From: Clostridia bacterium
GTDB lineage: Bacteria > Bacillota > Clostridia > Christensenellales > Aristaeellaceae
Assembly: GCA_017938695.1 (NCBI GenBank)
Contig: JAGBBA010000046.1
Coordinates: forward strand, 1 to 44,272
DNA: 44,272 nt
Reading direction: 5' to 3'
This document shows, piece after piece, positions 216-11,914 of this stretch. A model generated the notes under the pieces. It did no database searches. It was not told the DNA's origin and saw only the letters and a program-made list of their open reading frames with translations. Made by a program: the position numbers and the translations under genes. Each line of letters opens with the position of its first letter. The first letter of the stretch is position 1.

Positions 216-3041
216 TTACTCGGCTGCACCCTCGGTGCGGGTGAGGCGGATGATCTTGGTGCGGTTGTCCCTCAGGTCGTAGAGCACGGCCTCATCGCCG
301 CTGACGGAGGCTAGGCGGTGGGTGGGCTGCAGGGTCTCCTTGCTGTCGCCGGTGCTCATGGCCAGGGTGCTGATGGAGAAGTGCAGCTCCTCGCTGCCCA
401 GGGTGCAGGTGCCGTCCTCGCGGAAGATGAAGCTTTCGCCGTCGCGGTTCACCCAGGTGCCCAGAATGCGGTAGCAGGCGCGGTCCAACTGCTTGGCGGT
501 ATCCTTGTAGCCGGGCACGGCGCGGTAATAGGGCAGCGCGTCATAGGGGAAGCCAGCTTTGTCCAGGCGCTGGGCCTCCAGGTAGTTGGCCTCCTGCCAG
601 GTATCCGGCAGGGAAGCATATTTCTCCGGCAGGTCAGTCAGGTCCACACCGGAGAGCAGCTGCACGGCCTGGGCGTATTCGCCGCCAGCCATGGCCTGGG
701 CGACGGCCTCGGCGGTGGCCTGGTAGCATTCGTCGTAGAGGCTTTCCGCCTGGGCGGGGGCATCCTGCACATTGCCAGCCAGGGTGTAGTACCGGGCGGC
801 CTGCAGGGTGAGGCCCTCGGCCTTGGTTTCACCGGCCAGGGCGTAGTAGGCCTCCTGGGCCTTCAGGGCGGCATCCTCGTGGGAGACGATGGAAGTGAAC
901 AGCTCGGCGGCTTCCAGGTACTTCTGCTCGGCCATCAGGGCGGAGGCAGCCAGGTAGTCGCAGGCAGCCAGCCTGGCGGCAGCATCGGCATGGCCGGAAA
1001 GCTGCTCGAAGATGGGCCGTGCGGCGGCATAATCACCGGCGGCCAACAGGGCTTCGGCCTGGGTGAAGCGGATCTGCTCCAGCTTGTCGGCGGAATCCCT
1101 GTAGCCGTCCACCAGGGCGTAGAGCTTCTCAGCGGCGGCAAAGTCCTGGGCGTCGAAGAGGATCTCCGCCTGCTTGTAGCGGGCGATGCGCAGCTGCTTT
1201 TCGCTGTCGCTGTAATCCCCCAGGATCTCATACTGGGCGATGGCACCGGGGTAGTTGCCCTGGTTCATCAGGCTGTCGGCCAGGCGGTAGCGGGCCTTGT
1301 TCAGCTGCTTGTCCGCATCCCGGTAGCCGGGGATCTTGCTGAAGCCGTCCACTGCGGCCTGGTAATCCTTGCGGTCGTAGGCGGCGTCGGCAGGGGCGTA
1401 GATGCACTCCTGGCGCAGGTCGGCCACGTCCTGGTAATCATCGGGCAGCTGGGCCAGGTAGGTACCGGCCAGGGTGTATTCCATGTCGTCCATGGCAGTC
1501 TTGGCCAGGGTGTAGATGCAGTTGTCGCGCTTGGCGGCGGCATCCTGATAGGTGCTGATCTTGCTGAACAGCTCGATGGCGGTGATGTAGTCACCGGCCT
1601 GCATGGCTTCGTCGGCGGGGGTGTAGAAGCACAGGCTGGCCTGGTCGGCCGCGTCCTGATAATCCCCGGCCAGCAGGAATTCCTCGCCAGCCACCAGCAT
1701 TTCGCCCTGGTCGCGGAGCAGTTCGCCCTGCTTGTAGTGCACCTGCTTGATCAATTCATCGGCGTCTTCAAAGCCGGAAACCTGCTTGAGCAGCGTTAGC
1801 GCGGCGTCCCATTCGCCGGTTTCGAGAGCCTCCTTGCCGGGGAGATACACGGCCTGCTTGGCCTTCACCGGCGCGTCGTCATAATCGCCCAGGGCCTCGA
1901 AGGCGGCGCGGGCCTCGTCGTACTGCTTGCTTTGCAAAAGGGCGTCGGCGGCCAGGTAATCGCAGTAGGTCACCTGGGCGGCACTGTCCTGATAATCGCC
2001 CAGGGCGGCATACAGCTCCCGGGCTTCGGCGGTGCGGCCACCCTGCAGCAGCAGCCCGGCGCGGAGGTACTCCGCCTCGGTTACCAGCTGGGGCGCATCC
2101 TCATAATCGCCCAGGGCTTCCAGGGTGTTGCGGGCGTCCAGCACGGCCTTTTCGTCCTGGCTGGTCATGCTGTTCTTCGCCAGCAGATAGCGGCACTGCT
2201 TGAGGTAGTCTTCCGCCTCCAGGTAGTCGCCCATGTCGGCAAAGACGGTCTCGGCCTTGGCCCAGTTACCGTCGTTCAGGTCGCGGACGGCCAGCTGGTA
2301 TTGCACATAGGGCCAGGCGTGGAACACGCCCACATAGGCCAGGGCGGCACACACGGCCAGGGACACCACCGCGATGGTGATGCGCTTTTTCTTCTTTTGC
2401 TTGGCCTGGTACTTGGCTTCGCGCTCCAATTGCAGGCGGGAGGCATCCTCGCGGGCGGCCTTGGCCTTCAGGGCCAGCTGCTGCTCGCGCTGCTTGGCGG
2501 TTTTCTCGATGGCCTCGCGGTTGAACTGCTCGAAGACCAGCTTCTTCTCCCGGTGGCAGCGGATGCAGCGGTCGCTGTAATCCGCATTGGGGCGGCCGCA
2601 CACGCACAGCCACAGGCCCTCCTGCTCCTGGGGGAAGCCCACGGCGGCGGGCCCGGCGGCATAGCGCAGGTTTTCCAGCGAGCGGCTGTTGGGCAGGGCG
2701 TTGGAGGTATATTCGCTCATGGGCCCCTTGCCACGCCGCCAGATGCTGTTGTCGTCGAACCAGACCTTTTCGATCACGGTTTCGATCTGGGCGGGCTTCG
2801 CGTCCTCTTCCACCGGCACGGACAGGCCGAAGGTCTTGCCGGGCTCGCCGTGCAGGTCATGGCCGCGGTAGGTCAGCCGGGACAGTTCGCTGCCGTCCTT
2901 GCCGGTGAGGATCAGCGTCACCTCCACCGAGGAGATCAGCTTATCCGAAAGATTGTACAGCAAAAGATCGCAGGCGGCATAATCCTCCTGGGGAAGCTCG
3001 TAGCGCCACAGCTCCGCCGGGCAGGTCAGGTCGATCTTCAT
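216..3041 (-). CDS. membrane-anchored zinc-ribbon protein with about 16 TPR-like repeats
   Basis: 941 aa, function unknown. Residues 1-140 form a beta-rich domain, followed by a zinc-ribbon pattern (Cys146, Cys148, Cys159, Cys162). A basic, coiled-coil-like stretch (170-220) precedes one transmembrane helix (221-240). From about residue 249 come roughly 16 repeats of about 37 residues, each with a GDY-x-DA core, which should fold as TPR/Sel1-like helical pairs. A C-terminal beta domain (from about 885) resembles lipocalin-like modules. With no signal peptide, the zinc ribbon should be cytoplasmic and the repeats outside, which suggests a scaffold or sensor (inference). The start follows AGAGGTGA with good spacing. 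The gene begins 20 bases after the stop of the 4255-3062 gene, so the two form an operon. Long frames on the opposite strand are artefacts of the repeats. Confidence 0.85.
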   Translation of the reverse strand: MKIDLTCPAELWRYELPQEDYAACDLLLYNLSDKLISSVEVTLILTGKDGSELSRLTYRGHDLHGEPGKTFGLSVPVEEDAKPAQIETVIEKVWFDDNSIWRRGKGPMSEYTSNALPNSRSLENLRYAAGPAAVGFPQEQEGLWLCVCGRPNADYSDRCIRCHREKKLVFEQFNREAIEKTAKQREQQLALKAKAAREDASRLQLEREAKYQAKQKKKKRITIAVVSLAVCAALAYVGVFHAWPYVQYQLAVRDLNDGNWAKAETVFADMGDYLEAEDYLKQCRYLLAKNSMTSQDEKAVLDARNTLEALGDYEDAPQLVTEAEYLRAGLLLQGGRTAEARELYAALGDYQDSAAQVTYCDYLAADALLQSKQYDEARAAFEALGDYDDAPVKAKQAVYLPGKEALETGEWDAALTLLKQVSGFEDADELIKQVHYKQGELLRDQGEMLVAGEEFLLAGDYQDAADQASLCFYTPADEAMQAGDYITAIELFSKISTYQDAAAKRDNCIYTLAKTAMDDMEYTLAGTYLAQLPDDYQDVADLRQECIYAPADAAYDRKDYQAAVDGFSKIPGYRDADKQLNKARYRLADSLMNQGNYPGAIAQYEILGDYSDSEKQLRIARYKQAEILFDAQDFAAAEKLYALVDGYRDSADKLEQIRFTQAEALLAAGDYAAARPIFEQLSGHADAAARLAACDYLAASALMAEQKYLEAAELFTSIVSHEDAALKAQEAYYALAGETKAEGLTLQAARYYTLAGNVQDAPAQAESLYDECYQATAEAVAQAMAGGEYAQAVQLLSGVDLTDLPEKYASLPDTWQEANYLEAQRLDKAGFPYDALPYYRAVPGYKDTAKQLDRACYRILGTWVNRDGESFIFREDGTCTLGSEELHFSISTLAMSTGDSKETLQPTHRLASVSGDEAVLYDLRDNRTKIIRLTRTEGAAE

Positions 3042-3061
3042 GAAAGGTCACCTCTTGTAGA

Positions 3062-4255
3062 TCAGTGGGTGAAGTAAAGCATGATTTCGTTCAGGGACAT
3101 GTAGCTGAAGTTCATGTGCAGCACCACGGCCTGGCCGGAGGCGGCGCGCAGGGTGTAGCGCAGGGTGGCGGAGCCGTCCTCGCTGTATTCGGCGGTGCCG
3201 CAGGTATCGGAACCGGCGGTGCCGTAGAGCACCTCGGTCATGGTGGCGTCGTCGTACTGGCCCTCGTTATAGCGGAAGCGGTTCAGCACGCTGGGGAAGC
3301 TGTCGCCGATGCGCACGCAGCGGGGGCCTTCGATGCCGTCGGCCAGGATGGACATGGCGTAGAGGGCGGGGTTTTCCTTGTTCTTGTCATAAACGAAGGT
3401 CAATTCGCACTGGGCGAACTCCATGGCGCGGATGTACTCGCCGGTGTCGTCCTCCATCCACTGATCCTCCCGGGGGGCACCGAAGGCAGCCTGGGCAGAT
3501 TCGGGGGTGAGGGTGAGGAAGTCGATGCCGGCAAAGGCCAGGTCGCTCTCCTGGAAGGGGGTCAAGTCGGTGCCGATATAGCTGACGGGCACCTGGGTGT
3601 AGGCAGTTTGAGCCATCACGTCTTCCACGGTACTGAGGTTATCCAGCACGTCGGCCTCGTCGATGACCACGTCCAGGCCGTAGGCGCGGATGGCGGCCAC
3701 CATGTTCTCCTGAATGGTGTACAGAAGGCCCGCATCGGTATAGCCGTCGCCGCCGGAGGCCAGCTGGTCGTGCACGGCATACTGGATGGCCATGATGCGC
3801 TGGCCGTCGCGCTGCACCCAGCCCCACATGGCACCCATGGGCATGGTGTTGCTCAGGTACAGGGCGGCAAAGCCGCGGTCGCCTGCCAGGTTTTCGTTTT
3901 CATTATAATAGGCGGCCAGCACGTCGCTGGTGAACATATCCACCTTGGTGCCCCGGGGGGCCTCCTCCTCGGCACTGACGATCACCAGGTTCTTCAACAC
4001 GCTGTCCTCGGTCATCTCAGGACGGTCCATGTACAGCGTGGCAAATTCATAAATGAAGGCATAGCCGTCCTCGGAATAGGCTTCGGGGGCGGTGGGATCG
4101 TTCAGGGGCTGCTCCTTCAGGGCGCGGGCCTTATAGCTGTTGGCCCAGGTGAGCAGTTCCTCCCACTCCAGGGCACCGGCAGCATTGTCCTCGGCCAGGG
4201 CAGGAACGACGGGCAGAAGCATCAGGGTCATGATCAGGCAAAGCAGGCGTTTCAT
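3062..4255 (-). CDS. secreted protein of unknown function
   Basis: 397 aa, not recognised. A clear signal peptide (MKRLL, a hydrophobic core, then ALA before Glu) indicates export. The mature part is acidic with mixed helix and strand and no transmembrane segment or catalytic motif I can name. Two starts are possible. A GTG at 4261 lies only 4 bases from the GGAG and is too close, whereas the ATG at 4255 has 10-base spacing and places Lys-Arg at the head of the signal peptide, so I chose the ATG. It is the first gene of a two-gene operon with the zinc-ribbon repeat protein (20-base gap). If the partner's repeats are indeed extracellular, the two products could meet outside the membrane; that is inference from order only. 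The 110 bases upstream are AT-rich, but I found no convincing promoter. Confidence 0.75.
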   Translation of the reverse strand: MKRLLCLIMTLMLLPVVPALAEDNAAGALEWEELLTWANSYKARALKEQPLNDPTAPEAYSEDGYAFIYEFATLYMDRPEMTEDSVLKNLVIVSAEEEAPRGTKVDMFTSDVLAAYYNENENLAGDRGFAALYLSNTMPMGAMWGWVQRDGQRIMAIQYAVHDQLASGGDGYTDAGLLYTIQENMVAAIRAYGLDVVIDEADVLDNLSTVEDVMAQTAYTQVPVSYIGTDLTPFQESDLAFAGIDFLTLTPESAQAAFGAPREDQWMEDDTGEYIRAMEFAQCELTFVYDKNKENPALYAMSILADGIEGPRCVRIGDSFPSVLNRFRYNEGQYDDATMTEVLYGTAGSDTCGTAEYSEDGSATLRYTLRAASGQAVVLHMNFSYMSLNEIMLYFTH

Positions 4256-4372
4256 CGTCACAAAACTCCTTTTGGAATATCCATAGTTTTTTCCAGCTTT
4301 TATTTTAACCTAAAAATCATGACTTGTACAGATATTTTTGTAAAATTTCTGCCTTAATCGTCATAATTTCTT

Positions 4373-4414
4373 AATAAAAGTGCCCCGTGCGGAAAGAAAG
4401 GCAGGCCGCACGGG
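4373..4414 (-). terminator. terminator of the SH3b protein gene
   Basis: CCCCGTGCGG (4383-4392) pairs perfectly with CCGCACGGGG (4405-4414). On the minus strand the stem is followed by CACTTTTATT. It lies 45 bases past the stop at 4459. Confidence 0.75.
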
Positions 4415-4458
4415 GTCAAGATGTGCTCATCGCAGGAGTCTTTTGTGTCGGTTTTGGG

Positions 4459-5382
4459 TTACTTCATGAACCAGGTGCTGATGTAGCCGGTCACGCCTTC
4501 CACATCCACCTTGCACCAGTCGGTGCCGTGCTCCAGCACGGTGACGGTGGTGCCCACGGGCACAGTGCGGATGATCTCGCTCTGCAGGCTGGGGCCCTTG
4601 CGGAAGTTGACGATCTTGCCGCCGTTGACGTTGATCAGCTGGGCGGTGTAGGGCTGAGCCTCGCCCTTCTCATCGGTGACCTTGAGGAATTTGGCCATCA
4701 TGTAGCCGATCTTGCCGTCCTCCACCTGCACCTTATGCCAGGTGGAACCAGACTTGAGGATGGTCACCTTCACGCCGTTGCGGTAGTAATCCAGCACCTT
4801 GGCGTCCAGGGAGGCGGACTGGCGCAGGTTGAGCACCTGGGTGTCCTTGGGATTGTTCACCAGGGCGATCTTACCGGTGGCACTGCTGCCGGAAGAGGCA
4901 TTGCCGGAAGAGAAGTTCAGGTACTGAGTAGCCATGAAGCCTTCCTGGCCGTTCACGCTCACGCGGGACCAGGCGGCACCCTTCTGCAGCACGGTCACCT
5001 TGGTGCCGGGCTTGTAACTGGTGATGATGGCACCCTCCATGCTGGGCTCCTCGCGGAAGTTCAGGCCGATGCCAGTGTTGGTGCGCACGGTGGCGGTGGT
5101 GTCCTTGTTCTCGGTGGAGAGGTACTTGGCCATCATGTAGCCGCTCTTGCCGCCCACCTCGACCTTGTGCCACTCGTCGCCGGCTTCAACGATCTCCACC
5201 AGCGTGCCGGTGGGGAACTGCCCCAGCACCTTGGCGGTGAGGGAGGCGGTTTCGCGCAGGTTCAGCGCGCCGCCCTTCACCAGGGCGGACTGGGCGGTGT
5301 CGGCCATGGCCATCATAGGGGTGAGGGACAGGGCCGCAGCGGCGGTGATCCCCGCCAGCTTCTTGAAAGATACGTGTTTCAT
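4459..5382 (-). CDS. secreted protein of four bacterial SH3 (SH3b) domains
   Basis: 307 aa. A signal peptide (residues 1-28, ending MAMA before Asp) leads into four SH3b repeats at about 33-91, 96-156, 172-233 and 247-307. Each carries the family pattern LN(L/F)R near its start and a final (S/I)GY(M/I) segment followed by the closing strand. SH3b domains bind peptidoglycan peptides or other wall parts (established for the family). No hydrolase domain is attached, so it is probably a wall-binding or adaptor protein rather than an enzyme. Short Ser/Gly-rich linkers separate the repeats, most clearly between the second and third. The start follows GGAGG with 8-base spacing. It is a single-gene unit with its own terminator and a perfect inverted repeat in its leader. 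Confidence 0.85.
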   Translation of the reverse strand: MKHVSFKKLAGITAAAALSLTPMMAMADTAQSALVKGGALNLRETASLTAKVLGQFPTGTLVEIVEAGDEWHKVEVGGKSGYMMAKYLSTENKDTTATVRTNTGIGLNFREEPSMEGAIITSYKPGTKVTVLQKGAAWSRVSVNGQEGFMATQYLNFSSGNASSGSSATGKIALVNNPKDTQVLNLRQSASLDAKVLDYYRNGVKVTILKSGSTWHKVQVEDGKIGYMMAKFLKVTDEKGEAQPYTAQLINVNGGKIVNFRKGPSLQSEIIRTVPVGTTVTVLEHGTDWCKVDVEGVTGYISTWFMK

Positions 5383-6862: not shown

Positions 6863-7834
6863 ATGCGTAAAGTGATTTCCCTGATCCTCTGCCTGGCCCT
6901 GTGCCTGGCTTGCATCCCCGCTGTGGCCGAGGAAGCCGTGGCGGTGAAGACCGGCCTGTCCTTTGTGACCAGCGTGTCCGGCTCCAAGGACGGTGCTGCT
7001 CAGGCTACCCTGACCCTGGCTGCCGTGACCGTGGACGACAACGGCGTGATCGACTCCTGCGTGATCGACGCTGTGCAGGCCACCATCAACTTCGATGAGA
7101 ACGGCAAGCTGACCACCGCTCCCGCCACCGAGTTCGCCTCCAAGAACGAGCTGGGCGACGCCTACGGCATGCGTAAGGCTTCCTCCATTTCTGCTGAGTG
7201 GAACGAGCAGGCCGCTGCTTTCGCCGCCTACTGCGTGGGCAAGACCATCGACGAGCTGAAGGCCATGCCCGTGGACGAGGCCCAGAAGCCCGCTGATGCC
7301 GACCTGGCCGCTGGCTGCACCATGGCCGTGTACAACTTCCTGCCCAGCGTGGAAGACGCTGTGCGCAATGCCCAGCACCTGGGTGCCAAGAAGGGCGACA
7401 TGCTGAAGCTGACCACCACCGCCAACGCCTCCAAGTCCAAGGACGCTTCCGAGTCCGCCGACGGCCAGGCCCAGGTGTACGCTCATGTGGGCGTTGTGAC
7501 CCTGAACGGCGAAACCATCACCTCCTGCTACATCGACGCTGTGCAGGCTACCGTGAAGTTCAACGCCTCCGGCAAGATCACCTCTGACCTGGGTGCTGCT
7601 GTGCTGTCCAAGAACGTGATCAAGGACGGCTACGGCATGAAGGGTGCTTCCTCCATCGGCAAGGAATGGTACGAGCAGGCCGCTGGCTTCTGCGCCTATG
7701 TGACCGGCAAGACCATCGCTGACGTGGCTGGCATCGCCATCGTGGACGGCAAGGTTGCCGACGCTGACCTGGCCGCCACCACCACCATCGGCATCGCCGA
7801 CTTCCAGGCCCTGATCGAAAAGGCCGGCAAGTAA
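6863..7834 (+). CDS. secreted protein with two tandem divergent FMN-binding-like domains
   Basis: 323 aa with a signal peptide (1-22). The mature part is an internal duplication at about 30-172 and 200-323. The two halves share a VDDNGVIDSCVIDAVQ-like strand pair, a KN-x-x-x-D-x-YGM segment, EW-x-EQAA and GKT. Each half ends with DADLAA followed by GCT (151-153) or TTT (306-308), in the place where FMN-bind domains (PF04205; RnfG, NqrC, PplA) carry D-x-x-S/T-G-A-T, the site ApbE flavinylates. Here the S/T-G is replaced by L-A; the second half keeps the Thr (306) and the first half has Gly. The layout resembles the two-domain Listeria lipoprotein PplA, but there is no lipobox. An apbE gene lies 346 bases downstream. 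A flavin-carrying electron shuttle is an inference; a flavin-free relative is possible. TGGAGG (6851-6856) sets the start. Codon use (many GCT, GTT) resembles the binding-protein genes and suggests high expression. Confidence 0.6.
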   Translation: MRKVISLILCLALCLACIPAVAEEAVAVKTGLSFVTSVSGSKDGAAQATLTLAAVTVDDNGVIDSCVIDAVQATINFDENGKLTTAPATEFASKNELGDAYGMRKASSISAEWNEQAAAFAAYCVGKTIDELKAMPVDEAQKPADADLAAGCTMAVYNFLPSVEDAVRNAQHLGAKKGDMLKLTTTANASKSKDASESADGQAQVYAHVGVVTLNGETITSCYIDAVQATVKFNASGKITSDLGAAVLSKNVIKDGYGMKGASSIGKEWYEQAAGFCAYVTGKTIADVAGIAIVDGKVADADLAATTTIGIADFQALIEKAGK

Positions 7835-7838
7835 GCCT

Positions 7839-8120
7839 TCAACAAAGTGGCGGAGCCACTTTGTTGAGTTTGCGCTCCGTCACTGTGTCCGGCGTAAACG
7901 CCGTTCACGGCCGTTCCTTCGCGTAAGGAAAGTTTCCGGCAAAGCCGGAAACGCCCCGCCTACCCGAGGGAGAGGCTATGCCTCGACTAACGAGGCCAAT
8001 GCGAGCATTGGCCGAAGTGTAGCCAACGCACGGCCTTGTGCCGTGTGATGGCCGAGTACGGCGGAGCCGCCGGATACGATAACAGTCGAAGGGGCTGCGG
8101 CCCCTCCGACGCCACCCCTC
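7839..8120. repeat. array of about ten small perfect hairpins
   Basis: The 346-base gap between the two flavin genes holds no credible gene. It contains back-to-back inverted repeats with 2-5 base loops. The clearest are TCAACAAAGTGGC/GGA/GCCACTTTGTTGA (7839-7867), CGGCG/CGCCG (7890-7903), TTCCTT/AAGGAA (7915-7930), TTTCCGGC/GCCGGAAA (7933-7951), GAGGC/GCCTC (7972-7984), CCAATGC/GCATTGG (7996-8011), CACGGC/GCCGTG (about 8029-8045), CGGCG/CGCCG (8059-8072) and GGGGC/GCCCC (near 8090-8104). The first may end the upstream transcript, although its T run is weak. Confidence 0.7.
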
Positions 8121-8130
8121 AAGTACCCTC

Positions 8131-8166
8131 GGCTGCCTCCTCATTCCGGGGAGGCAGCCTTCTTTT
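8131..8166 (+). terminator. terminator-like hairpin just ahead of apbE
   Basis: GGCTGCCTCC (8131-8140) pairs perfectly with GGAGGCAGCC (8150-8159), followed by TTCTTTT. It ends 14 bases before the apbE start, so it would limit read-through from the upstream gene into apbE. No separate apbE promoter was found. Confidence 0.55.
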
Positions 8167-8180
8167 GCAAAGGAGATCCC

Positions 8181-9209
8181 ATGTTCAAGCGACTGCTGGC
8201 CCTGGCCTTGTGCCTGCTGCTCCTGCCCCTGGGGGCCCGGAGCGAGGCGGAAATGAAACGCTACAACGCCTCGTTTCTCGACCTGTTCAACACCGTGACC
8301 ATCATCGTGGGCTGCGATGACAACATTGCGGAGTTCCGCGCCGTTGCCCAGCGCATCCACGATGAGCTGGAGGAGTACCATCAGCTTTACGATATCTACA
8401 ACACCTATGAGGGCATGAACAACCTGAAGACGGTGAACGATATGGCTGGCGTGGCTCCGGTGGAGGTGGACGGGCGCATCATCGACCTGCTGCTGTTCTG
8501 CCAGGAGATGTCGGAAAAGACCGGCGGCCTGACGGACGTGACCATGGGCAGCGTGCTCTCCCTGTGGCATGAGGCCCGAGTGCACGGCATTGACTTCCCG
8601 GAGGAAGCGTATCTCCCGGAGGCTGCCGCCCTGCAGGAGGCTGCCAGGCACACCGGTTTCGACAAGGTGATCATCGACAAGGAAGCGTCCACCGTGTACA
8701 TCACCGACCCTGCGGCCAGCTTGGACGTGGGGGCCATTGGCAAGGGGTATGCTGTGGAGCGCGTGTGCGAAACCCTGCCTGACGGGCTGCTGCTCTCGGT
8801 GGGCGGCAACGTGCGCGGCACAGGGGTGAACCCCATGACCGGCGCGTTCTGGACGGCCGGTGTGCAGGACCCGGAGGGCAGTCAAAATGACTACCTCCAC
8901 GTGGTGTATGTGGACGGCGTGAGCGTGGTGACCAGCGGCGACTATCAGCGGTACTACACCGTGGACGGAGTGCGCTACGGGCACATCATTGATCCCCGGA
9001 CGCTGTACCCCACGGGGCTGTGGCGCGCGGTGTGCATCCTGGCCCCGGATTCCGGTCTGGCGGATGCACTGTCCACCGCGCTGTACCTGCTGCCGGTGGA
9101 GGACGGTCAGAAGCTGCTGGACGAATTCGGCGTGGAGGCCATGTGGATCCCCGAAGAGGGCGAATGCGTGTACAGCCCGGGCTTTGCCAGGTACATCAAG
9201 GGACAGTAA
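8181..9209 (+). CDS. apbE: FAD:protein FMN transferase (ApbE), exported
   Basis: 342 aa with a signal peptide (1-21). ApbE proteins attach FMN from FAD through a phosphoester bond to Thr or Ser of extracytoplasmic target proteins and need Mg2+. Family blocks are present in order: TGGLTDVTMG, LDVGAIGKGYAVE, SVGGNVRGTG, TSGDYQRYY, GHIIDPRT and LADALSTALY. AAAGGAG, 6 bases from the ATG, fixes the start. The only evident local substrate candidate is the duplicated secreted protein at 6863-7834, but no Rnf, Nqr or NosR-type target is in the window. A terminator-like hairpin precedes the gene, so its coupling to the upstream gene is uncertain. Confidence 0.9.
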   Translation: MFKRLLALALCLLLLPLGARSEAEMKRYNASFLDLFNTVTIIVGCDDNIAEFRAVAQRIHDELEEYHQLYDIYNTYEGMNNLKTVNDMAGVAPVEVDGRIIDLLLFCQEMSEKTGGLTDVTMGSVLSLWHEARVHGIDFPEEAYLPEAAALQEAARHTGFDKVIIDKEASTVYITDPAASLDVGAIGKGYAVERVCETLPDGLLLSVGGNVRGTGVNPMTGAFWTAGVQDPEGSQNDYLHVVYVDGVSVVTSGDYQRYYTVDGVRYGHIIDPRTLYPTGLWRAVCILAPDSGLADALSTALYLLPVEDGQKLLDEFGVEAMWIPEEGECVYSPGFARYIKGQ

Positions 9210-9687: not shown

Positions 9688-10386
9688 TCATTCCTCGGCA
9701 GGGGGTTCCTCTTCATCATCCTTGTCGATCTGGCGCAGGCCGGCCACCTGGGACACCGGCAGCGAGAAGCAGATGGCGCCGGCCTTGGTCTGGGGGCCTG
9801 CCTGCTCCACGATGGCCTTCATGATGGCGGACTTCTTTTCCGCCTCGCTGACGATGAGCACAACGTCCTTCTCGTTGGCCAGGGAGATGCCCAGGAAACG
9901 CTCGGCTTCCTTGGCACCGGTGCCCTTGCCGGCCAGCACCGTGCCGCCGGTGGCTCCGGCGGAGCGGGCGGCGTGCATCACCAGGTCGGAGTTGCCCTCG
10001 TTGAGGATCACGTAGATCAGCTCGTGGGGGAATTCCATTTTGATCTTGTCCCCGGAGGGGGTTTTGTTATCGGTCAGGTATGCCATGGTTCGGCCGCCTC
10101 CTACGCTTTTGATGGGAATGGACAGCATAATGCCGTTGCCGGGAATGTCGATAAACATGCGCAGCTTGGCTGCACGCATCAGCCGCTGGGTCTGCTCCCG
10201 GTCGGCCACCACGGTGAGCAGTGCCTTTTCCGTGGGGATCAGCCCATAGAGGGAAAGGTGCTCCATGGTGGCGGTGCCCTGGCACATCATGGTGAGGGTC
10301 AGGGGCAGCTTCAGGTTATGGCAGATGTTTTCCATGGTTTCGTGCCGGTCGCGGTTCACAATGGCCATGATCAGGTTCAATTCCAT
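9688..10386 (-). CDS. PII-like signalling protein with two PII-type halves
   Basis: 232 aa, cytoplasmic, no membrane segment. The N-terminal half (about 5-100) and the C-terminal half (about 118-215) each show the ferredoxin-like strand-helix-strand pattern of the PII/GlnK superfamily. The second half keeps the motif GATGGTVLAGKGTG, typical of PII-like proteins, and SEAEKKSAIMKAI near its end. The canonical T-loop uridylylation Tyr of GlnB is not evident, so nucleotide-only control is more likely. It lies 7 bases after the DUF1538 gene and must be co-transcribed with it. By analogy with GlnK-AmtB and SbtB-SbtA it should gate the partner membrane protein (inference). The acidic tail (DDEEEPPAEE) is probably disordered. 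Confidence 0.75.
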   Translation of the reverse strand: MELNLIMAIVNRDRHETMENICHNLKLPLTLTMMCQGTATMEHLSLYGLIPTEKALLTVVADREQTQRLMRAAKLRMFIDIPGNGIMLSIPIKSVGGGRTMAYLTDNKTPSGDKIKMEFPHELIYVILNEGNSDLVMHAARSAGATGGTVLAGKGTGAKEAERFLGISLANEKDVVLIVSEAEKKSAIMKAIVEQAGPQTKAGAICFSLPVSQVAGLRQIDKDDEEEPPAEE

Positions 10387-10393
10387 GCTATAT

Positions 10394-11914
10394 TCACACC
10401 TCCCACAGTTCGATCACGTCGCTCTCGCCGTATTCCAGCTCGGGCTGCTGCTGCACCGTGCGCACCTTCAGCACATAGATCAGGCCCATGATCTGCACGG
10501 TGATCAGGGGCATCATGGCCACCAGGGCCACCAGGCCGAAGGCATCGGTCATGATGTTGCCGCCCATGGCGTTGCAGGCACCCATGGCAAAGGGCAGCAT
10601 GAAGGTGGCCGTCAGGGGGCCGGATGCCACGCCGCCGGAGTCGAAGGCGATGGCGGTGAAGGTTTGGGGAACGAAGAAGGCCAGGATCAGTGCCACGGCG
10701 TAGCCGGGGATCACCAGCCACATGATGGACATGCCCGTCAGCACGCGGAGCATGGCCAGGCCCATGGCCGCAGACACGGCAATGGACAGGCTGTAATGCA
10801 TGGCCTTTTCAGAAATGGCACCGGCACTGAGCTCCTCCACCTGCTTGTTGAGCACATGCACGGCAGGCTCGGCATTGATGATGAACCAGCCCATCACCAT
10901 GGCGATGGGGATCAAAAGGAAGCGCAGCTCCGGCGAGGTGAGCCGCTGGCCCAGGATGTAGCCCAGGGACGAAAAGCCCACATTGACGCCGGTGAGGAAC
11001 AATACCAGACCCACGCAGGTGATCACCAGGCCCAGCAGAATGCGCATCAGGGGCAGGTGCTGCAATTTCAGTGCCACGACCTGGAAGAGCAGGAAGAATA
11101 CCACGATGGGCAGCAGGGCGATAACGACCTCCAGCAGGTATTCCGGCAGGGCGTGGACGTAGCTCAGGCCCAGCTCCACCGTGGTGGCATAGTTGTTTAC
11201 CAGCGAGGCGGCTGCACTCTCCGGTGCATTTTTGTAGATGAAGCTCAACAGCAGCACGGCCAGGATGGGCCCCACCGAGCACAGTGCCACCAGGCCGAAG
11301 GAGTCGGTCTGGGCGTTTTCGTCGCTGCGGATGGAGGCCACGCCAACGCCCAGGGCCATGATAAAGGGCACGGTCATGGGACCGGTGGTCACGCCGCCGG
11401 AATCGAAGGCCACGGCGAGATAATCGGGGTCAGTGAAGGCGGCAAGGATAAACACCAGCGCATGCAGCCCCAGCAGCAGCCACTTCAGCGGGATGCGGAA
11501 CAGAATGCGCAGCATGCTGACCATCAGAAACAGGCCCACGCCGATGGCCACGGTGATGATCAGCACCAGGGTGTTGATGTTGGGCACGTTGGCGGCCAGC
11601 ACCTGCAGGTCAGGCTCGGCCACGGTGATGGCAATGCCCAGCACCAGGCTGACGCAGATGATCAGCGGCAGGTTGCGGCTCTTGGTCAGCTTGGCACCCA
11701 TGTGGGAGCCGATCTGCGTCATGGATACATCGCTGCCCATGGTAAACAGGCCCATGCCCACGATCAGCATCACCGCGCCCACAAGGAAGGCCAGCAGCAG
11801 ATCGGTGGTCACAGGAACAAAGCTGAAGCACATCACGGCCACGATCAGCGTAATAGGCAGCACGGATGCCGCAGCTTCGCGGAATTTTTCAAAGAACATC
11901 TTTTTCGGGTTCAA
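10394..11914 (-). CDS. DUF1538 family multi-pass membrane protein, putative transporter
   Basis: 506 aa and about 12-14 transmembrane helices. The protein is an inverted or tandem duplication. AFDSGGV-T/A-(T/S)GP(M/L)T occurs once in each half (near residues 168-181 and 415-428), each in a re-entrant-like Gly-rich segment, as in transporters with two symmetric pores. DUF1538 has no assigned substrate that I know of. A start at TTG (11912-11914) is supported by AAAGGAG exactly 7 bases upstream; the next ATG is 15 bases further in and badly spaced. The gene is first in an operon with a PII-like protein, which suggests transport controlled by energy or nitrogen status. The strong promoter is at 12066-12094, with a leader of about 140 bases that contains a GC-rich, possibly structured stretch. 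Confidence 0.75.
   Translation of the reverse strand: MNPKKMFFEKFREAAASVLPITLIVAVMCFSFVPVTTDLLLAFLVGAVMLIVGMGLFTMGSDVSMTQIGSHMGAKLTKSRNLPLIICVSLVLGIAITVAEPDLQVLAANVPNINTLVLIITVAIGVGLFLMVSMLRILFRIPLKWLLLGLHALVFILAAFTDPDYLAVAFDSGGVTTGPMTVPFIMALGVGVASIRSDENAQTDSFGLVALCSVGPILAVLLLSFIYKNAPESAAASLVNNYATTVELGLSYVHALPEYLLEVVIALLPIVVFFLLFQVVALKLQHLPLMRILLGLVITCVGLVLFLTGVNVGFSSLGYILGQRLTSPELRFLLIPIAMVMGWFIINAEPAVHVLNKQVEELSAGAISEKAMHYSLSIAVSAAMGLAMLRVLTGMSIMWLVIPGYAVALILAFFVPQTFTAIAFDSGGVASGPLTATFMLPFAMGACNAMGGNIMTDAFGLVALVAMMPLITVQIMGLIYVLKVRTVQQQPELEYGESDVIELWEV

Follow-up and report, generated by a model that had tools for sequence, protein, structure and literature searches.

A two-domain exported protein encoded beside apbE in a Clostridia bacterium: a likely flavinylated electron carrier with an acceptor consensus of its own

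Organization of the locus

The window, the whole stretch of 44,272 nucleotides that was analysed, is contig 24 of a draft genome (2.53 Mb, 76 contigs) of a Clostridia bacterium. It encodes a secreted 323-residue protein and, 346 bases downstream on the same strand, an ApbE protein, as the preliminary description had reported. The features are summarized in Table 1.

Table 1. Features of the duplicated gene and the adjoining apbE gene
Feature	Position	Strand	Basis
Gene for the duplicated secreted protein, 323 aa	6863..7834	+	Open reading frame and ribosome-binding site GGAGG
Signal peptide, about residues 1-22, cleavage between AVA and EE	6863..6928	+	By eye, without a predictor
Half 1, FMN_bind-like domain, residues 28-171	6944..7375	+	Domain HMM, AlphaFold model
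Half 1 motif D147-L-A-A-G-C-T153, proposed FMN acceptor Thr153	7301..7321	+	Half-half alignment, 2kzx profile, domain HMM, hhalign
Half 2, FMN_bind-like domain, residues 179-322	7397..7828	+	Domain HMM, AlphaFold model
Half 2 motif D302-L-A-A-T-T-T308, proposed FMN acceptor Thr308	7766..7786	+	Half-half alignment, domain HMM
Spacer between gene and apbE, dispersed composite repeat, 340 bases	7836..8175	+	40 own-genome matches scored
apbE, FAD:protein FMN transferase, 342 aa	8181..9209	+	PF02424, E 1e-59, 202.8 bits

The internal duplication recognized at first reading is borne out by BLASTP, which aligns the two halves at 45% identity over 128 columns (E 2e-32), and by a half-against-half local alignment score of 251, compared with a mean of 35 (sd 6, maximum 68) in 1000 shuffles. 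DADLAAGCT and DADLAATTT are located near the ends of the halves, also as first described. Cys17 of the protein lies within LACIPA, where no clear lipobox is seen; a lipobox-like Cys is present in many relatives, and one relative (L008) has no Cys. The gene has the lowest Wright Nc, 24.5, among six genes of the window (the next is 26.2), and this codon bias is consistent with the abundant production proposed in the preliminary description.

The 40 matches of the spacer repeat include the spacer itself and one short self-match, and segments of the repeat occur separately or together in the genome. Since the spacer is a dispersed repeat, the wide gap between gene and apbE probably arose by insertion. 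Further along the window (9688-11914, minus strand), a P-II-like protein, in which the P-II match begins only at residue 123 of 232, adjoins a membrane protein with two DUF1538 domains.

Ser252, His268 and Asp295 of the window ApbE align with the catalytic triad of ApbE/FmnB chains in the PDB, including 7esa; these Ser-His-Asp catalytic residues of ApbE and FmnB are named in PMC12052999. Its HMM match and active-site residues mark it as an ordinary member of the ApbE/FmnB family. The genome encodes a second ApbE, on contig 71 (L079), and the two enzymes fall in separate clades. The second apbE is followed by an 891-codon reading frame with seven FMN_bind matches (1336-4909 for the two genes together), whose product would be a multi-flavinylated protein.

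Spread of the family and linkage to apbE

A family match was found in 36 of the 150 genomes searched, the own genome included and weak matches counted. The main family set consists of the window member and the best 80 of at least 199 confirmed relatives, and gave 167 domains, 166 of which cover the acceptor site. A phylum sample was obtained from 398 evenly drawn genomes, 61 of which, the own included, matched at E <= 0.001; 40 loci from 39 genomes (E 2e-43 or better) were taken, and 21 genomes at E 3e-12 or worse, 17 of them matching from the signal-peptide end, were left out. The two sets overlap in part (L083/G008:C15, L158/G517:C6) and are not independent samples.

The linkage to apbE, noted at first for this locus, is strong across the family. 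With flanks of up to 6 kb, apbE is present at 70 of these best 80 loci; it lies directly downstream on the same strand in 69, overlapping the end of the gene by a few bases in three, and upstream and divergent in one (L086). Among the ten loci without apbE, three contigs stop less than 700 bases downstream. In the phylum sample, apbE is downstream on the same strand in 34 of 40 loci, and three of the other six (L223, L236, L242) are at contig ends. An apbE gene is present in 36 of 36 genomes with a family match vs 92 of 114 without (p 0.002, kinship not corrected), and coordinates read by eye place it directly downstream in 15 of those 36. Domain layouts vary from single-domain members through the two halves of the window protein to the four domains of L103 and L106. 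In L231 (G185 contig 36), tandem family genes with four domains in all are followed by one apbE.

A first tree of 77 linked and 23 other ApbEs separated all but L183 and suggested a clade exclusive to the family; most of the 23 had been chosen from the highest PF02424 scores. A second tree, with 19 ApbEs added from genomes without a family match, kept 45 of the 77 linked enzymes beside 42 others. Here the label needs 6 changes (shuffled mean 29), with L064, L067 and L068, which are linked to single-domain members, among the others and with L183 and L203 among the linked, so that the linked enzymes are clustered and an exclusive clade is rejected.

The acceptor motif

The preliminary description had aligned the motif with Thr306 in half 2 and Gly151 in half 1. 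This register is rejected; the Asp of the motif corresponds to the second one in DAD (D147, D302), and the acceptor positions are T153 of DLAAGCT and T308 of DLAATTT. The register was set at the second Asp because family members show plain DLASGAT in the same columns, because profile alignment matches DAISGAT of 2kzx in register, and because hhalign to 32 FMN_bind stretches, which had been chosen by their motif, agrees.

In this register, the acceptor is Thr in 150 and Ser in 16 of the 166 domains, and it is the sole column confined to Ser/Thr among the 140 that are occupied in 150 or more domains. Position -6 is Asp (150) or Glu (16), position -3 is Ser (82), Ala (75) or Thr (9), and position -1 is Val (116), Cys (22), Ala (19), Thr (7) or another residue (2). 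Position -2, the column of Thr306, whose conservation had been put forward as a check, varies (S 128, T 21, G 13, V 2, A 1, M 1). An earlier set of relatives has Thr as acceptor in 48 of 48 domains. Of 80 domains found in the phylum sample, 77 cover the site, with Thr in 76 and Ser in one; the commonest motifs are ELTSSVT, ELTSLVT and DLKSSVT, and SGAT occurs in none of the 77.

The pattern D-x-x-[ST]-G-A-[ST] is found in 4 of 166 family domains and is absent from the window motifs, which end in AGCT (half 1) and ATTT (half 2). All four read DLASGAT and come from L103 (6001-7977) and L106 (6001-7983). In each of these proteins, which have four domains, this motif is in domains 1 and 3 and ASVS in domains 2 and 4, and canonical and variant motifs alternate. 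Judged from the aligned domains, the family has its own acceptor consensus, [DE]-L-x-[SA]-S-V-[TS], which replaces [ST]-G-A-[ST]. In the canonical motif, about 50% of flavinylation is reported to remain after Gly to Ala or Ala to Val replacement (PMC12052999), which suggests that Val before the acceptor is tolerable, though not ideal. A rule that Cys precedes the acceptor where an apbE of the linked type is not adjacent fits the window's kin L083-L086, L089 and L092; it was dropped, as L090 reads AGCT/ATTT on a contig without apbE, and L123, L135, L222, L237 and L238 are without adjacent apbE yet have Val or Ala.

Relation to FMN_bind proteins

In contrast to the cAD1/PplA type, the window protein and 11 other scanned members give no Pfam match to PF04205, and NCBIfam returned nothing exceeding its cut-off in the window protein and five members. 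We attribute the failure of these annotation libraries to find the relatives to the unusual attachment motif. A Pfam match of the window protein to the adenovirus knob (E 7e-4, below its cut-off) was regarded as a chance hit; of ten other members, L131 alone gives it (E 0.17).

The family profile matches 2kzx in register (E 3.9e-6). Alignment of the family to the FMN_bind stretches by hhalign gave E 1.3e-4 with a probability of only 54, and a single-half alignment against one FMN_bind domain gave a short match only, in another part. The best structural matches of the AlphaFold model are 3o6u (CPE2226) and 2kzx, both single FMN_bind proteins, at modest Z, and Foldseek against the PDB gave no significant match. 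Of the outcomes named at first reading as speaking against the proposal, a fold unlike FMN_bind did not emerge, within the limits of these modest matches, and neither did a lack of linkage to apbE. The description of an ApbE-linked, two-domain, extracytosolic, FMN_bind-like protein is supported. A distant relative, L191 (G046 contig 136, 267-1913), has two DALTGAT motifs and lies beside apbE, eetA and eetB; it might bridge the window family and canonical FMN_bind proteins.

Extracellular electron transfer and Rnf loci

Neighbors were identified by clustering of reading frames and by tblastn with representatives, seven identities being assigned by Pfam. The names EetA, EetB, DmkA and DmkB follow what we take to be Listeria usage. 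Relatives of the window gene have neighbors (apbE/fmnB, eetA, eetB, ndh2, dmkA, dmkB) similar to those of PplA in the extracellular electron transfer (EET) locus of Listeria. Two layouts are seen. One is ndh2-dmkB-dmkA-eetA-eetB-gene-apbE; in the other, rnf genes come after eetA-eetB-gene-apbE. Caproicibacter fermentans (L141) and Sinanaerobacter (L122) are examples with the EET layout. Of the five EET genes, two or more are present in 41 of 80 loci (10 of 40 in the phylum sample), without an Rnf gene in 30 and together with Rnf genes in 11; Rnf genes alone are found in 16, neither in 23, several of which have short flanks, and a histidine kinase in 12. None of ndh2, eetA, eetB, dmkA and dmkB is located in the window, where only apbE adjoins the gene; this genome carries its eetA and eetB elsewhere, on contig 52 (93.9-94.8 kb). 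In 572 Clostridia genomes, eetB has been reported beside rnf (PMC9973259).

Proposed function and alternatives

We consider it likely that the 323-residue protein is an exported electron carrier with two domains of FMN_bind type, and that the neighboring ApbE places FMN on Thr153 and Thr308, so that both halves probably receive a flavin from this enzyme. The computed basis is homology, the conserved acceptor, gene linkage, and a model fold with a modest match; we infer an FMN adduct, the identity of the ApbE that acts on the carrier and, for this organism, both the source and the recipient of the electrons. ApbE would split FAD outside the membrane, supplied by EetB, and would tie FMN through a phosphoester bond to both threonines, giving two flavins per molecule. 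In the relatives, the carrier holds the position of PplA in a flavin-based EET locus or precedes an Rnf operon; there it would most likely take electrons from the membrane, through Ndh2/demethylmenaquinone or Rnf, and hand them to outside acceptors.

It is improbable, though it comes nearest among the alternatives, that only canonical ApbE substrates encoded elsewhere are flavinylated, and that the family is a degenerate FMN_bind relative with non-covalent flavin or none, in which Thr serves as a helix cap. The departure from [ST]GA[ST] in 162 of 166 domains points in this direction, as does the distribution of canonical substrates. Fifteen genomes with a single apbE match (12 near a family gene and 3 not) were searched for FMN_bind and NqrB/RnfD, and 14 have both of these canonical kinds of substrate; the linked ApbE must therefore serve canonical motifs too. 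Together with the ApbE trees, this leaves an ApbE specialized for the variant motif unsupported, and that idea was dropped. A helix cap, however, would allow Asp or Asn, neither of which occurs at the acceptor column in the 166 and 77 domains, and the linkage to apbE (69/80 loci, and 34/40 in the phylum sample) argues against this alternative. So does the remaining genome, G043 (91% complete, 190 contigs), which has neither FMN_bind nor NqrB/RnfD matches and represents an orphan-ApbE case; its one apbE adjoins a single-domain member with DLKTAVT (L068, contig 177), the sole substrate seen among the types searched.

Still less probable is a mixed carrier, in which flavin is attached to half 2 only, as the preliminary description proposed, or to half 1 only. 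The halves differ at the two residues preceding the acceptor (GC vs TT), and the SGAT and ASVS domains of L103 and L106 indicate that modification could differ by domain. The Gly on which the proposal was built is nevertheless a product of the register error, and Thr or Ser is kept in all site-covering domains (166/166 and 77/77), first and second halves alike. A protein for flavin storage or for FAD/FMN trafficking to ApbE, rather than an electron carrier, is very improbable: eetB, whose Listeria homologue is described as a FAD-export subunit (PMC9973259), is present in the flanking DNA at 37 of 80 loci, but a conserved acceptor and an architecture of two or four domains accord with redox carriers of the PplA kind and with multi-flavinylated proteins, and multi-domain FMN_bind proteins are encoded near the family gene in G021, G031, G042 and G074.

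Comparison with known carriers and significance

As an ApbE-flavinylated two-domain carrier, the protein is of a known kind, represented by PplA and FMN-bind2. PplA of Listeria and the cAD1 precursor lipoproteins are exported and have two FMN_bind-type domains and two flavinylation sites (PMC9973259, PMC7074142), a likeness of described layout. In contrast to the SGAT/TGAT motifs of cAD1 and its Listeria orthologue (PMC7074142), the window family is mostly without these. FMN-bind2 (Huang et al. 2024, PMC11334425) comprises domains of about 150-160 residues, often two or four per protein, which were found by BLAST rather than Pfam, are tied to ApbE, and were modelled as pairs meeting via beta sheets. 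The window family likewise has a domain of about 160 residues, often in even numbers but with single-domain members too, and no Pfam annotation; it may be the same as FMN-bind2, to which it is likened by description. The proposal of a new branch was only partly right: a subtype with two or four domains was published in 2024. The available text of PMC11334425 gives [ST]GA[ST]-like motifs and makes no mention of an SVT-type consensus, and no description of an SVT-type flavinylation motif was found in the open-licence literature. A NosR-ApbE route, and not the window family, is proposed for Clostridium in the available text of PMC13134045. So far as the open-licence literature shows, three things are new: the consensus, the strict confinement of its acceptor to Thr/Ser, and the position that the family occupies in EET and Rnf loci of Clostridia; if FMN-bind2 and the window family are the same, the novelty left is the motif and locus analysis.

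Extended to Clostridia at large, the reading is evenly poised between right and wrong: exported carriers with two flavins each and a consensus of their own would form a large family, dark to annotation, that replaces PplA in EET loci and elsewhere lies between eetAB and rnf. Earlier surveys found ApbE substrates through Pfam domains and [ST]GA[ST] (PMC8238504), to which PMC11334425 added BLAST. A family that adjoins apbE in most loci, lies in EET and Rnf loci, keeps a strict Thr/Ser acceptor and escapes both survey tests would imply a wider ApbE code. If this holds, a major substrate of many ApbEs in Clostridia would have escaped such surveys, and the motif accepted by ApbE would be broader than supposed. 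The family would then give many anaerobic Clostridia a concrete and testable, now unnamed, electron-export protein.
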